In this document: positions 16,738 to 22,540 of the stretch, in pieces
Layout: every line of letters starts with the position of its first letter
How positions within the stretch are numbered: position 1 is the first letter of the stretch
DNA from: Blastopirellula sp. J2-11
GTDB taxonomy: Bacteria; Planctomycetota; Planctomycetia; Pirellulales; Pirellulaceae
Direction of reading: 5' to 3'
DNA: 64,000 bases
NCBI RefSeq assembly: GCF_024584705.1
Contig: NZ_CP097384.1
Span: 1,984,001 to 2,048,000 of the forward strand
Position numbers and translations under genes: made by a program
Notes under the pieces: generated by a model
Seen by the model: only the letters and a program-made list of their open reading frames with translations
The model's database searches: none
Told to the model about the DNA's origin: nothing

Positions 16738-16810
16738 GCCCCCTTCGTCTAGTGGCCCAGGACGTCGGATTCTCAGTCCGAAAACAGGGGTTCGACTCCC
16801 CTAGGGGGTA
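16738..16810 (+). tRNA. tRNA-Glu (anticodon CUC)
   Basis: A 73-nt cloverleaf. Acceptor GCCCCCT/AGGGGGT, D-arm containing GTCTAGTGGCCCAGGAC, anticodon stem TCGGA/TCCGA around loop TTCTCAG (anticodon CTC), and T-arm AGGGG-TTCGACT-CCCCT. CCA is not encoded. The first acceptor pair reads G-U instead of G-C. A terminator follows at 16817-16840. Confidence 0.93.
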
Positions 16811-16816
16811 CTTTCC

Positions 16817-16840: not shown

Positions 16841-16888
16841 ATGCGCTGACGGCCCCCTGCTCTTTTGGGTTGGATCATAGGACCGGAC

Positions 16889-17208
16889 CGGACTCCGCGC
16901 TTTTTTCGAGTTGGAACCTTGGACTGGATCGGACTCCGCGTTTTTTCGGGTTGGAACGTTGGACAGGATCGGACTCCGTGCTTTTTCGGATTGGAACCTT
17001 GGACTGGATCGGACTCCGTGCTTTTTCGGGTCGGAACCTTGGACCGGATCGGACTCCGCGCTTTTTCGGATTGGAACCTTGGACTGGATCGGACTCCGTG
17101 CTTTTTCGAGTTGGAACCTTGGACCGAACGGACTCCGCGCTTTTTCGGGTTGGAACGTTGGACCGGACCGGACTCCGTGCTTTTTCGGGTCGAAACGTTG
17201 GACAGGAC
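16889..17208. repeat. Tandem array, eight copies of a 40-bp unit
   Basis: Copies begin at 16889, 16930, 16970, 17010, 17050, 17090, 17129 and 17169. Six are exactly 40 bases; the first is 41 and the sixth 39. The unit begins cggactccg, has a T-rich centre (cttttt) and ends with a ttggac-like block. Copies differ by a few substitutions. There are no spacers, so it is not a CRISPR. No stop codon occurs in the unit on several frames, which creates long false open frames. Confidence 0.93.
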
Positions 17209-17397: not shown

Positions 17398-18021
17398 CTA
17401 CTTTTGCTTCGCCAGGATCGCCTGCAAGTCGTGCTTATAGATGCACAAGCAGTCTTCTATCTGTTGCGGAGTGAGACGGCGAAACGTCCTGGGAAGATCC
17501 CCAGGCTCGATCCATTTCCGCGAACCTTCCAGACCTAACGCGACGGCTCCAACCCGCACTCCGGCATGGAGATAGACGAACTCCGGCGAAAGTCTGAGAA
17601 AGGCGCCCAAGCGATGCGCCGTGTCATAGACCATTAGTTCGCCGATCCCCGAAATGCTCAAGATCGCCTCTTCGACCAGCAGGAACAGTTCGTGAAAAGT
17701 TTCGCATGCGGCGAGATTTCGTCTTCGCAATCGAGCATGAACCTTCTGCAGATTGACCCGCTTCAAACGATACTGATGCGGATGCCGCCGGCCCTGGGGC
17801 GTTTCCGCAAACGACGCCCGCCGGAGAGCTTTGTCCCAAGAGGGAAGTTGCTCATAAAATCGAATCTCTTTATCCGCCCCTGACTGATAATGCTTCAAGT
17901 AGTGACGGACGATCGCGGCGTAAGTGTCCAGGTTGGTGTCTTTCAGACGCTGTTGGCAATCGCCTGATTTGGGGTGACGCGGTCCGCAGGACTTGGGTGA
18001 GGTTTTCTTGCGGTTTGACAT
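17398..18021 (-). CDS. Hypothetical protein with helix-hairpin-helix-like segment
   Basis: A 207-residue basic protein that I do not recognise. The N-terminal 20 residues are Lys/Arg/Cys-rich. A central helical region follows (HARLRRRNLAACETFHELFLL). Then comes SISGIGELMVYDTAHRLGAFL, where SGIGE resembles a helix-hairpin-helix turn used in DNA binding, followed by SPEFVYLHAGVRVGA. It ends in a helical Gln/Lys tail. No signal peptide or membrane segment is seen, so it is cytoplasmic. It lies 105 bases downstream of the nuclease-like gene on the same strand, but its base composition looks like the host genome and a direct repeat falls between them, so it may not be part of the defence segment. 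Confidence 0.6.
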   Translation of the reverse strand: MSNRKKTSPKSCGPRHPKSGDCQQRLKDTNLDTYAAIVRHYLKHYQSGADKEIRFYEQLPSWDKALRRASFAETPQGRRHPHQYRLKRVNLQKVHARLRRRNLAACETFHELFLLVEEAILSISGIGELMVYDTAHRLGAFLRLSPEFVYLHAGVRVGAVALGLEGSRKWIEPGDLPRTFRRLTPQQIEDCLCIYKHDLQAILAKQK

Positions 18022-18066
18022 GGCTGCAGTTCGGTTAATCGAGGATGTCCGTCGCCGTTTCGGGTG

Positions 18067-18081
18067 TCATTGCCACGGAAG
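18067..18081. repeat. Left copy of 15-bp direct repeat bracketing the defence segment
   Basis: tcattgccacggaag here matches 21058-21072 at 14 of 15 positions, in the same orientation. The two copies enclose the nuclease gene and the Kiwa genes and could mark an insertion. Confidence 0.4.
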
Positions 18082-18126
18082 CGATGCGCATTACCAGTCG
18101 ACAATCTCTGGCGGCGGTGCTACAGG

Positions 18127-19020
18127 TCAGTCTTCACGAACGCAGGTCTTGACGTACTTGATCCACGCCTGAATTCTACGCGGCATTACATCCCGATGGG
18201 AGAAGATGAATTTACGGATCACGTCGGCGGGAATGATTTCGGTCATGTCGTTGGCGCTTCCTTGGATCTCTCCGGACGCCGAAAAGAGAAACGCTTTGTC
18301 GGAATCGTTTCGATAGTTGTCGTGATTCAAGAGCGACGTTTTCTCCGCTTTTACCTGAACGCCGAAATGATCTGTTCCTTCACGCGATACCAATATAAAT
18401 TCGATGTGCTTCGTATCGCGTTTGCAGGTGCTGGGGTAAATCAACAGGCGTTTCTCCAACTGCAAATAAATGCCGACCACATCTTCAAAATCGTCTGGGT
18501 CCAGCAGATCGAAAATATCGGTCGTTGTGTCGGGATCCAATGGGTAAATGTTTTCCCCTTTTTTCTGGTTGAAGAAAAAGCGGGAATATCGGTTGACGTT
18601 TCGACTTTTGACCTGTTGTGCGGTTCGTCCCCGGCGAAAATTATTGAGCACCCGACCGGGAACTTCGTCGATGCTTCCTGCCGTAATCCAGTCGCAGTCC
18701 CGCACGTTTCTGGTGTCAGCGTCTCGGAAGTCCTGATCGTTTTCGGATCGCCAATCACTGGTCACACGGCCAAGGTAGTAAGTTGCATTACTGGTTCTTG
18801 TCCAAACGAGGTCATCAACATTCATCCGTTTGAGAAGGATATTGGTGGCTGTTGTCCAGGAGATGTTGCCATACTTTACTTTGCTTCTACGCAAGTAATC
18901 TGGTGCCGAGGTAGGTGGCGGATCGATGCCCCAGCCAATTCCCACAATCCCCCTGGCGATACAGAACTGAGCGGTGGTTGGTTGAGCCTTGAGATTGACG
19001 CACCAGATGTTTTGGCTCAT
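18127..19020 (-). CDS. Probable modification-dependent restriction nuclease (PUA-like + PD-(D/E)XK)
   Basis: A 297-residue cytoplasmic protein. Residues 1-115 look like a PUA/EVE-type base-reader domain: IARGIVGIGWGI, then VDDLVWTR (68-75), YYLGRVTSDW (81-90) and a W111 after NVRDCD. Residues 165-290 look like a PD-(D/E)XK nuclease of the Mrr type: FEDVVGIYLQ (178-187), PSTCKRDTKHIEFIL with Asp202 and Glu207, and HFGVQVKAE with the Q-x-K pair 222-224. This pairing of a reader with a nuclease is known from enzymes that cut DNA carrying modified bases. It is divergent from the Kiwa genes, which supports a defence role. The family call is by motif reading only. Confidence 0.6.
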   Translation of the reverse strand: MSQNIWCVNLKAQPTTAQFCIARGIVGIGWGIDPPPTSAPDYLRRSKVKYGNISWTTATNILLKRMNVDDLVWTRTSNATYYLGRVTSDWRSENDQDFRDADTRNVRDCDWITAGSIDEVPGRVLNNFRRGRTAQQVKSRNVNRYSRFFFNQKKGENIYPLDPDTTTDIFDLLDPDDFEDVVGIYLQLEKRLLIYPSTCKRDTKHIEFILVSREGTDHFGVQVKAEKTSLLNHDNYRNDSDKAFLFSASGEIQGSANDMTEIIPADVIRKFIFSHRDVMPRRIQAWIKYVKTCVRED

Positions 19021-19398
19021 CGTGTTGTTCCCGTAGGAGTTTCCTGCAAAGCCATGTACTCATTTTCACGATGACGTGGCAATATTACGCGATCTCTAAA
19101 TTGCATTGAACTCAGCAGGGAAAACCTGAAGGTGAGATTCGATTAGACATGCAACCCAAAAAATATTGTTGAGATGACTCGCCGGACTCCATGTTTGCGA
19201 CAAGTGCGGGCGATTTCACTTTTGAAGGAACTCGAAAGCTGGAGGTCTGTTTATCGATGTGTAATGGATTTCAGTCTGTTTGAGCCAAAAAATAGCCCAG
19301 CTAGAACACGAGGACCAAACGTGTCGTTCGGCCGTGCGATAATTATCATTCTTACCAAATCACACTTCATTGACTTCAGAAGTAAGGGAAGTGGCCAT
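19021..19398. other. Divergent AT-rich intergenic region upstream of Kiwa
   Basis: The 378 bases between the nuclease gene and kwaA. It contains a perfect 10-bp palindrome gataattatc at 19338-19347 that could be an operator or part of a promoter, and AAGGGA at 19384-19389 as the kwaA ribosome binding site. In-frame codons continue upstream of kwaA to 19174 but do not look like protein. Confidence 0.4.
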
Positions 19399-19959
19399 AT
19401 GAGTCGAATTGCAAAGTTGTTGCTCGTCTTTACGTCACTGTCACCCGCAACGGGCGCTCTCGCGATAATTGAATTTCAGGCAGGGCGACCAGTCACAGCC
19501 TTAGTTCTAATTGGCTCTGCCCTTTTGCTCATCGCAATCTGCTATTTAATCAAGATTTACCCTGAGAAATATGGCGAACGACGATTACTAGACGTTGCTG
19601 CTGTTAAGAGTACAGACAAAGAGGCGCTGGCATTTATTATTGCATACCTGGTTCCAATCCTAACAGGAAAGATCCCAAATGTTTCAGAGCCACAGTATTG
19701 GGCGATTACCGCGTATGTATTTGCGGTGATTGGGCTTACCGTGTACCATAGCAATGCGTTTCATTTTAATCCAGTTCTCGCCGCTTTCGGGTATCACTTT
19801 TACGAGGTTACGGCGGATAACGGAATGACTTATTTGCTCATAGCGCGACATGTCGTTCGAGTGCAGACCCCTGAGGTTTGGGTGACCAAGTTATCCGACT
19901 ATGTGTACCTGGAAGTGAAGTCGGATGAGCATTCATCAGGCAACATAAAAGATGAGTAG
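19399..19959 (+). CDS. kwaA: KwaA, membrane component of a Kiwa anti-phage system
   Basis: A 186-residue membrane protein with four hydrophobic segments, at about residues 6-25, 32-52, 76-90 and 100-117. A soluble C-terminal part starts at FHFNPVLAAFGYHFYEV and includes YLLIARHVVRV and a final charged tail. Length, four-helix layout and the NP-x-L...GY-x-Y block agree with KwaA, the membrane partner of KwaB in the two-gene Kiwa system. KwaA is thought to sense phage attack at the membrane. It overlaps kwaB by 8 bases (19952-19959), implying translational coupling. The start at 19399 is preferred over 19174 because AAGGGA lies just upstream and the first helix begins there. The DNA is visibly AT-richer than its neighbours. 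Confidence 0.78.
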   Translation: MSRIAKLLLVFTSLSPATGALAIIEFQAGRPVTALVLIGSALLLIAICYLIKIYPEKYGERRLLDVAAVKSTDKEALAFIIAYLVPILTGKIPNVSEPQYWAITAYVFAVIGLTVYHSNAFHFNPVLAAFGYHFYEVTADNGMTYLLIARHVVRVQTPEVWVTKLSDYVYLEVKSDEHSSGNIKDE

Positions 19960-20893
19960 TGCTAATTTTTATGCTCTGCTTCGCGACGGCCACGGAATCA
20001 TCGCACAGAAGATCCCGGTGTCGAATTCAGTCCAAAAAGAACTTAGTGAAGTTTTTAAGCGGCAATCAGACGCTTTTCATACATTTTCACATAAAGTTGA
20101 CATGGAGGATGGCAAAACAGAACGTGTTGAGTCTGAATCCGAAGTGATCGATTTTTTTCCGATCTATACGATTAGTGACAATTCTCAGATCTTCGAGATC
20201 GATTATCAGCTTGATGGACCGATCGCGGCGCTTACGAAGTCATTGGATGGTGTTCCAAATTTGGCGATAAATGACAATACGATTCCTTCAATCCGGGCAA
20301 TTCTCGCGATTTGGGTTTCTCGCAGTTCAACTAAAATTTGTTTTCAGAGCTTTGATCGCCGCCGGATTCTGTCGCCAAAAAAGATGACTTTTTTAGAGGC
20401 TGCGGGTACTTTTTCCCGTTTAGATAAGCCGGGGTTTACTCTAGGCGAAAAGGCGGATGCTGTATTTGAAGATGGGAAGCTCCATTTTCGATCATTTCCA
20501 GTTGTTGCACGATTTTTAAATTTGATTGAATTATTTGACGAAGCGTCTGATGAAAAGATTGAGGAAGTATTGAGACATCAACTTCTTTATGTAGGCGATG
20601 CAGACTCAGTTAAGAGCAAGGCTGATCTTTTGATGCGAAAACAATTTGCAGCCGTCTCAAGTTTGGGCATCCTCGATAAAGCTAAACCCAGAAAGATTCG
20701 CGATTCTGCAGTTGAATTTGGCATCAACGTGAAGTTAAAGCAGCGCGATGGAAAAATGACGGTAGAGTTCCCTGAAACGAAGAAGGAACAGAAGGAATTC
20801 CTCCGATTTTTGACCGAAGGATTTTACCTTGGTCCAATTACCGGCACAAAGTATCAAAGCAATTCACATCGACCATGGAAGGGAAAAAAGTGA
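19952..20893 (+). CDS. kwaB: KwaB, DUF4868 effector of a Kiwa anti-phage system
   Basis: A 313-residue cytoplasmic protein with the DUF4868 pattern of KwaB: GFTLGEKADAVFEDGKLHFRS (about 161-181) leading to FPVVARFLNLIELFDEASDEK, and the C-terminal FYLGPITGTKYQSNSHR, which matches the conserved ending of KwaB proteins. Family length is about 315 residues, so it is complete. KwaB is the DNA-binding effector that works with KwaA to block phage replication or late transcription. The ATG at 19952 lies inside the end of kwaA. One counted line (20041-20100) has 20 G+C of 60, against 43 of 60 at 21301-21360, which supports transfer from another genome. Confidence 0.85.
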   Translation: MSSANFYALLRDGHGIIAQKIPVSNSVQKELSEVFKRQSDAFHTFSHKVDMEDGKTERVESESEVIDFFPIYTISDNSQIFEIDYQLDGPIAALTKSLDGVPNLAINDNTIPSIRAILAIWVSRSSTKICFQSFDRRRILSPKKMTFLEAAGTFSRLDKPGFTLGEKADAVFEDGKLHFRSFPVVARFLNLIELFDEASDEKIEEVLRHQLLYVGDADSVKSKADLLMRKQFAAVSSLGILDKAKPRKIRDSAVEFGINVKLKQRDGKMTVEFPETKKEQKEFLRFLTEGFYLGPITGTKYQSNSHRPWKGKK

Positions 20894-21057
20894 TTTGAGT
20901 GGGAGGTTCAATTCCAGTTTTGACTGCCAGGACGCCGTTACCATTCCTTCGTGGTAATGAATGCAGATGGCGTCAGGTGGTGTACCTATCTTGATGATGT
21001 GACGACATGATTTCTATCGAGTTGGGCTACACTCGAATCTAGCTCTCAAAAGCACAT

Positions 21058-21072
21058 TCATTGCCACGCAAG
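21058..21072. repeat. Right copy of 15-bp direct repeat bracketing the defence segment
   Basis: tcattgccacgcaag, 14 of 15 identical to 18067-18081. This copy is also the left arm of a hairpin. Confidence 0.4.
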
Positions 21073-21084
21073 ACCGTGGCAATG
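21059..21084. repeat. Hairpin, 10-bp stem and 6-base loop
   Basis: cattgccacg (21059-21068) with cgtggcaatg (21075-21084). It lies 165 bases after kwaB and 95 bases before the SGNH gene. No T-run follows, so it may be an attachment-site structure or a weak terminator. Confidence 0.5.
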
Positions 21085-21178
21085 GCACCTCCGCTTCTTC
21101 TTTGCACCCGTGTAGAATAGATTTCTCCCCTGCCCTGTTTCTTCCTCCCGCCGCCGTTCTGCAAGCAAAGAGCCCGCC

Positions 21179-22540
21179 ATGAGAAGCTTCTTCGTATTCC
21201 GTGTTGCTTCGTTGGTGTTGTTCATCAGCGGATTAGCGGCGTCAGTTGCTTGGGCGACGGATCCGCCAGCCAAGGTAACTTTGAGCGGGGACTGGGAAGT
21301 GCAGGTCGATGTCGCCGGCAACGGGGACGATCCGGGGGTGTCGGCGTTGGTCGCGGTGGATCTGCCGGGGCTGTTTACGGTGACGGCTGAGCAGCATGAT
21401 AGTTTGCCGGTTTATGATCCGGCGGGGCCGCAGTATTATCGCGGCGCTCGGCTGACGGCGTTGATTTCTGAATCGCTGACGGCGCCTGACGTGCTCGACC
21501 CGAGCAGCGTGGTGGTTCGTAGCGGGCCGACCGATACGGCGGAAACTTATGTGCGTGGTCGCGATTATGAATTCGAAAATCGTTGGGGCGGGATTGGTCG
21601 CTTGGCCGGCGGGAGGATCGCCGCGGGGACGCCTGTGTTTATCAGCTATCAGCATTCGCTTTCGCGGATCGATTCGATCGTGTTGAACGGTGCTGGCGAG
21701 TTGGAGTATCGGGCCGGCCAACCGAAGGCCGAAGCGCCGGCGTCGCCTCAGATTGTCGCCGGAGAACGACGCTTGGCGAACGTGTGGATACCGGGCCCGC
21801 TAGAGCGGCTGACGAAGAAGAATCTGTTTCCCCTTTTGGAGACCGCTTATCCCGAGCCGGCGGCGACTTCTCCTTCGCTGGCCGAGCAGAAAATTCCTCG
21901 CGCGATGGCCAAGTTGCGCTCAGGCGAGCCGCTGCGAATTTTGGCTTGGGGTGACAGCGTGACCGAAGGCGCCTACCTGGCCCACCCAGAGCGGGAACAC
22001 TGGCAACAGCAATTTGTCGCGCGGCTGCGGCAGCGCTTTCCCCAAGCGAAGATCGAACTAGTGACCGAAGCTTGGGGCGGTCGAACGACCGGTTCCTACT
22101 TGGCGGTTCCGCCGGGTGAGCCGCACAATTATCAGGAAACAGTGCTGGACGCGAAGCCCGACCTGGTGATTAGCGAGTTTGTGAATGACGCCGGTTTGAG
22201 CCCGGCGGCGGTGGAAGATCGCTATGGCAAGTTGCTGGCCGACTTTCAAGCGATCGGCGCCGAATGGATCATTCTCACGCCGCACTATGTGCGACCTGAC
22301 TGGATGGGATTGGATCGGCAGAATGAGATTGATGACGACCCGCGCCCGTATGTGCAGGGGCTGCGAGAATTCGCCGCCCAGCATCCGGTGGCGCTGGCCG
22401 ACGCGTCGCTGCGGTATGGTCGACTGTGGCGACAAGGGATTCCGTACAACAGTCTGATGGTGAACTGCATCAATCATCCGGGGCCTGCCGGGCTGGCGAT
22501 TTTTGCCGACGCGCTGATGGAGCTGTTTCCAGAGAAGTAA
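21179..22540 (+). CDS. Secreted SGNH/GDSL hydrolase family protein
   Basis: A 453-residue exported protein. A signal peptide (to about residue 27) precedes an N-terminal beta-rich domain of about 200 residues of unknown type. A C-terminal SGNH hydrolase domain follows: GDSVTEG with the nucleophile Ser260, Gly300 in GGRTTG, Asn336 in EFVND and His433 in NCINHPG. The Asp normally three residues before the His is not obvious, since the position is Cys430, so the catalytic dyad may be atypical. Such enzymes are esterases, often on acetylated or sulfated sugars. A long hairpin (22554-22588) separates it from the large PVC cytochrome gene. Confidence 0.85.
   Translation: MRSFFVFRVASLVLFISGLAASVAWATDPPAKVTLSGDWEVQVDVAGNGDDPGVSALVAVDLPGLFTVTAEQHDSLPVYDPAGPQYYRGARLTALISESLTAPDVLDPSSVVVRSGPTDTAETYVRGRDYEFENRWGGIGRLAGGRIAAGTPVFISYQHSLSRIDSIVLNGAGELEYRAGQPKAEAPASPQIVAGERRLANVWIPGPLERLTKKNLFPLLETAYPEPAATSPSLAEQKIPRAMAKLRSGEPLRILAWGDSVTEGAYLAHPEREHWQQQFVARLRQRFPQAKIELVTEAWGGRTTGSYLAVPPGEPHNYQETVLDAKPDLVISEFVNDAGLSPAAVEDRYGKLLADFQAIGAEWIILTPHYVRPDWMGLDRQNEIDDDPRPYVQGLREFAAQHPVALADASLRYGRLWRQGIPYNSLMVNCINHPGPAGLAIFADALMELFPEK

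Follow-up and report, generated by a model that had tools for sequence, protein, structure and literature searches.

The question raised by this locus is whether two overlapping genes of a planctomycete constitute a Kiwa anti-phage system and, if so, how they came to their present site and whether they would act as the studied Kiwa systems do. The genes lie in a window of 64,000 nucleotides from Blastopirellula sp. J2-11 (NZ_CP097384.1, positions 1,984,001 to 2,048,000), from the first letter of which the window coordinates in Table 1 are counted. The best explanation, held with high confidence, is that the pair is a Kiwa system of a divergent branch, carried in an exchangeable defence segment and presumably acting as in studied Kiwa.

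Table 1. Features of the Kiwa locus, its left flank, and the corresponding slot of a same-genus genome
Feature	Coordinates	Strand	Size	Remarks
tRNA-Glu(CTC)	16738..16811	+		Left flank; outside Kiwa; same site in three same-genus genomes
Left border gene	17398..18021	-	207 aa	At the slot in both the window genome and G389; outside Kiwa
Strain-specific segment (PDC-S02 and Kiwa)	18030..21122		3.09 kb	blastn flanks stop at 18029 and resume at 21123
PDC-S02 candidate defence gene	18127..19020	-	297 aa	PADLOC PDLC04816, 5.9e-85, residues 4-291
kwaA	19399..19959	+	186 aa	Predicted membrane protein; four long helices and a C-terminal beta part
kwaB	19952..20893	+	313 aa	Likely cytoplasmic effector; overlaps kwaA by 8 bases
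DSR2-type sirtuin gene and DDE transposase	L079:3248-8440			In place of Kiwa in G389

The gene pair and its family

A sequence-only reading had described a 186-residue protein followed by a 313-residue protein with an overlap of eight bases; both frames, open from ATG 19399 and ATG 19952, respectively, were confirmed together with the overlap (19952-19959), and the motifs it quoted (GEKADA...FRS, TGTKYQSNSHR, and a KwaA-type stretch) are present in the translations. The kwaA frame can also be read from ATG 19174, giving 261 aa. This longer version was rejected on a count of 34 relatives that match from residue 1 onward, in which the distance to the first possible start codon is at most 45 bases upstream in 32, the exceptions being L010 (90 bases) and L026 (a broken frame). 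Because the first possible starts of the relatives sit near residue 1, translation of kwaA probably does not begin at ATG 19174.

The window pair belongs to Kiwa, a known anti-phage system of two genes, as the earlier reading had proposed, and profiles, gene order, and predicted folds concur in this. It is a divergent member, on a branch far from that of characterised Kiwa. The profile search suggested as a check gave nearly full-length PADLOC matches, at 1.6e-42 for KwaA (residues 1-174 on positions 2-171 of a 173-position model) and at 1.7e-59 for KwaB (residues 5-309 on positions 2-291 of 292). When four window proteins were scanned with PADLOC, 15 KwaA models matched KwaA and six KwaB models matched KwaB. 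The elements of Kiwa in the PADLOC sense were checked one by one, and both profiles were found, with kwaA and then kwaB adjacent on one strand. Both proteins also match the correct NCBIfam families (NF041622 and NF041623), though they miss the equivalog cut-offs of this pair widely, with 53.9 against 100 bits for KwaA and 26.4 against 200 bits for KwaB. Similarly, KwaB falls below the gathering score of Pfam PF16162 (14.7 against 26.3 bits), and the DUF4868 label given earlier is therefore sub-threshold as a Pfam assignment. With phmmer, the window KwaA found the solved KwaA 9o0i at 1.5e-5, and 9mrg was also found by sequence; no solved KwaB was found by sequence with the window KwaB or with a 37-row KwaB profile.

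The AlphaFold model of KwaA (pLDDT 86.2) has helices at residues 2-27 (broken at 13-14), 31-58, 73-89, and 97-117, which could cross the membrane. The four long helices of the model agree with the earlier description of a four-helix membrane protein; on the Kyte-Doolittle scale only three stretches exceed 1.6 and the fourth helix remains below; insertion of KwaA into the membrane would be expected from the model. All seven PDB matches of this model at E <= 0.001 are Kiwa chains, six titled KwaA and one from a KwaA-KwaB complex, with TM scores of 0.53-0.74, the best (0.74) being to 9mrx_A of the KwaA-KwaB complex, and the predicted fold is that of the solved KwaA membrane proteins. The six PDB matches of the KwaB model (pLDDT 92.3) at the same threshold are likewise all Kiwa chains, five titled KwaB and one from a KwaA-KwaB complex, at TM 0.54-0.57, probability 1.00, identity 11-12%, and rmsd 6.5-7.8 A, consistent with a KwaB fold as modelled. 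Because this structural match is moderate, DNA binding by KwaB may differ from that of characterised Kiwa.

Relatives and their placement in type I restriction operons

A scan of genome contigs for window-like KwaA motifs yielded 41 loci, with copies such as L019-L021 counted, in several bacterial phyla and one archaeon; a scan of the genome contigs with KwaB alone found no relative, and a viral scan found one locus, on a contig whose length and coordinates are those of L042. A KwaB frame lies downstream of KwaA in all 41 loci, at a spacing of -62 to +19 bases in 40 of them; the remaining one, from Candidatus Entotheonella (L023:6541-7854), has a gap of 1314 bases. Since the KwaA and KwaB profiles for this check were built from the window pair and L002-L006, the matches of these five loci, and of the copies L001 and L011, follow from the way the profiles were made. 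The eight-base overlap of the window pair recurs in three loci (L007, L022, and L047), and KwaA or KwaB frames are broken in four (L026, L030, L033, and L041). On a Bartonella plasmid (NZ_CP104897.1), a kwaA-like frame (3.2e-30; L004:2468-2983) lies ahead of an annotated DUF4868 gene and is absent from the PLSDB gene table, a table incomplete by design. A putative KwaA fusion of approximately 580 residues in Paenibacillus (L028) was rejected, as the extra part, rich in Arg, reaches the cut-off of no Pfam family and the relatives begin at the KwaA part.

The distribution of Kiwa is sporadic. With one profile, KwaB was matched in three of 392 genomes of the window's phylum, and KwaA was matched in seven of 396 genomes of its order, the window's own genome being included in both counts; KwaB adjoins KwaA in six of these seven. 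In the other (L091), the end of KwaA is cut by the contig, and no KwaB was found in any frame within about 1.5 kb behind it, which makes it a possible orphan or remnant. A quick tree without bootstrap, in which long branches were flagged, was built after leaving out copies (L001, L002, L020, L021, and L048) and broken or cut loci (L026, L030, L031, L033, and L041). The rows nearest to the window pair are the planctomycetes L008 and L010 (support 87). L003, whose genome belongs to the same class, lies outside these two, and the planctomycete L011 falls in a mixed clade.

Many of the relatives lie in or beside type I restriction genes (L004, L007, L009, L011-L018, L023, L024, L026, L027, L032, L034, and L035), and in several of these Kiwa stands between hsdS and hsdR, at times with an extra gene before hsdR. 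The nearest frame upstream of kwaA matches Methylase_S, the HsdS domain, at 1e-5 in 15 of 39 neighbourhoods (of the 40 upstream frames listed, picked by length, with L006 left out and the plasmid locus L004 in); near-copies such as L017 and L018 are among them, and because the loci were collected by their window-like KwaA motifs, this is not a family-wide rate. Downstream, HSDR_N was matched in five of 38 nearest frames (41 listed; L005, L006, and L030 left out), and phmmer placed an HsdR frame starting at most 150 bases after kwaB in L004, L011, L012, and L032; in L009, L013, L014, L015, L016, L023, and L026, the distance is 0.95 to 1.8 kb. The order in L011 is hsdM, hsdS, kwaA, kwaB, and hsdR, with junction overlaps of 1 to 38 bases by first possible starts. 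L003 adjoins a weak match to an MmeI target-recognition domain (24.3 bits against a cut-off of 27). A restriction label, assigned by hand to 17 of the 39 rows, changes at least five times on the tree; the association of Kiwa with type I restriction was therefore probably gained, or lost, several times. This recurrent placement suggests a testable link between both defences.

A 2023 preprint, as cited in PMC11514479, linked Kiwa to RecBCD and found KwaB able to act without KwaA. No RecC match was found in the window genome by a search that did match E. coli and B. subtilis as controls, so the reported link may not apply in the window host and the RecBCD branch of the mechanism may not operate there. 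These observations raise the alternative of a Kiwa architecture that responds to another trigger or works with another partner, such as restriction enzymes in place of RecBCD, this branch having ancestry in common with the copies in type I restriction operons. In its favour, the window pair joins, at a support of 90 (not starred), a clade of 11 rows (support 100), every one of them found with type I restriction genes, which adds to the upstream Methylase_S matches, the missing RecC match, and the structural identity of only 11-12% to characterised KwaB. It is nonetheless improbable, as the window pair is free-standing, the three N6_Mtase matches of its genome are all more than 250 kb off (the nearest at about 256 kb), the predicted folds agree with characterised Kiwa, and a common operon does not demonstrate cooperation. 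A related and speculative proposal, unlikely on present evidence, is that part of the Kiwa family serves type I restriction enzymes as a built-in partner (hsdM-hsdS-kwaA-kwaB-hsdR) and that the window pair is a free-standing, RecBCD-independent relative of this branch; if true, the built-in Kiwa could, for instance, stop phage DNA that had escaped or blocked restriction.

An exchangeable chromosomal slot

The Kiwa stretch has a G+C content of 43.9% against 56.6% for the window, and equally low values occur in just four of 1251 overlapping segments of the same length (step 50); the twelve lowest segments listed all begin between 19051 and 19601. The two 60-base counts given earlier, 20 G+C at 20041-20100 and 43 at 21301-21360, are exact. 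Third-position G+C is 47.8% in kwaA and 39.9% in kwaB compared with 69-75% in four flanking genes. The dip begins near 18000 and therefore also spans the PDC-S02 gene, a neighbour outside Kiwa proper that is divergent from kwaA within the same low-G+C stretch. Its protein has no Pfam match, and phmmer found only the window's own copy in the frames of loci L001-L048. The protein of the left border gene has no Pfam, NCBIfam, or PADLOC match.

In a same-genus genome (G389), the flanks of the strain-specific segment are 88-89% identical to those of the window by blastn, and the proteins bordering the slot on the left share 98% identity, while the slot itself holds 5.57 kb of other DNA. Encoded there is a protein of 1258 aa, which aligns with almost all of the PADLOC Dsr2 model at 7.2e-179 and also matches Pfam SIR2_2, together with a DDE-type transposase of 390 aa. 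The slot is thus swapped between the two genomes, and acquisition of Kiwa, which had been proposed from base composition, is better supported by this swap than by G+C alone: the lowest G+C of the window and the exchange in one same-genus genome support acquisition of Kiwa as part of a short defence segment open to exchange. The sequence-only reading mentioned neither this slot nor PDC-S02 beside Kiwa, nor how far the pair stands from characterised Kiwa.

Two other same-genus genomes (G121 and G421) keep the tRNA-Glu and match the window to about 16847, and the remainder of the slot is unmatched in the stretches compared. Ten frames beside this tRNA (six of 13 listed in G121 and four of 22 in G421) gave no PADLOC match, and the evidence for exchange therefore comes from two genomes. 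In G121, the right-flank gene has its orthologue in different surroundings. An alignment of the junctions, inspected non-systematically, revealed no obvious repeat. Directly after the tRNA-Glu, a tandem array of 8.7 copies of a 40-base unit occupies 16859-17207, and related sequence is scattered at many sites in the window genome and in G389. A 10-pair palindrome (21059-21084) lies just within the right edge of the strain-specific segment, with short copies resembling it dispersed across the four genomes of the genus that were searched. As a site occupied by Kiwa and PDC-S02 in one genome and by DSR2 in another, the slot may be worth searching for further planctomycete defence genes.

Another alternative is that this Kiwa is silent or decayed and has lost its defence function. 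A simple sigma-70 scan detected no + strand site ahead of kwaA; the region has two sites, of which one falls within kwaA and the other is on the - strand, the mean for shuffled sequence being 4.0, and planctomycete promoters may differ from this pattern. Since both frames are intact, the positions most strongly conserved among the relatives are retained, and both AlphaFold models are confident, silencing or decay is very unlikely. Against the Kiwa reading as such count the missed NCBIfam cut-offs, the failure of the 37-row KwaB profile, the moderate KwaB TM scores, L091 with its missing KwaB, the lack of a RecC match, and the few KwaB matches in the phylum. That the proteins form a non-defence membrane protein and partner merely resembling Kiwa would suit the low identity to characterised members and the missed equivalog cut-offs, but is scarcely credible given that profile, order, and fold concur, that the neighbour PDC-S02 is a candidate defence gene, and that a relative's slot holds DSR2.

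Proposed mode of action and comparison with known Kiwa

In the treatment of Kiwa in PMC12904381, KwaA forms inner-membrane tetramers, each tetramer binds four KwaB dimers, and lattices arise; KwaB binds DNA without cutting it. The mode of infection sensing by KwaA is called unknown there, and a table names membrane perturbation and inhibition of host RNA polymerase. By analogy, the window KwaA, probably tetrameric, would reside in the inner membrane, notice phage attack at the envelope, and keep KwaB at the membrane, and KwaB dimers would bind incoming phage DNA such that replication and late expression are blocked with no cutting. Tetramer and lattice formation, sensing, and DNA binding are thus attributed to the window pair from studied Kiwa. 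A Streptococcus Kiwa is described in PMC11514479 as active on lactococcal phages and modestly on streptococcal ones. The window Kiwa adds one distant copy to a phage defence already characterised, and its host offers a setting in which the reported RecBCD link is testable.

Among the relatives, the KwaA of L008 (Bythopirellula sp.) and L010 (Isosphaeraceae bacterium) is 45% and 35% identical to that of the window by tblastn, respectively; in L008, Kiwa sits behind a gene of 1005 aa with ResIII and SWI2_SNF2 matches, whereas the neighbour of the window pair is PDC-S02. Pseudomonas phage PfAC02a and Klebsiella phage ST846-OXA48phi9.1 likewise carry kwaA followed by kwaB. Their KwaB covers 58% of the window protein (tblastn) with 24-26% identity in the alignment, and, unlike the window pair, these systems are phage-borne and stand elsewhere in the tree on long branches. 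The Kiwa of restriction operons (e.g., L011, L012, and L032) consists of the same two genes, and L011, from a Planctomycetota bacterium, belongs to the same phylum; the L011-type operon is tightly packed from hsdM to hsdR, whereas the window pair is free-standing with no such genes adjoining. Characterised Kiwa (9mrx, 9mrg, 9mrr, 9mtn, and 9nyu) likewise combines a membrane KwaA bearing a C-terminal beta part with the KwaB fold, at a structural-alignment identity to the window proteins of 18-21% for KwaA and 11-12% for KwaB; unlike characterised Kiwa, the window proteins score under the NCBIfam cut-offs and belong to a host without a RecC match.
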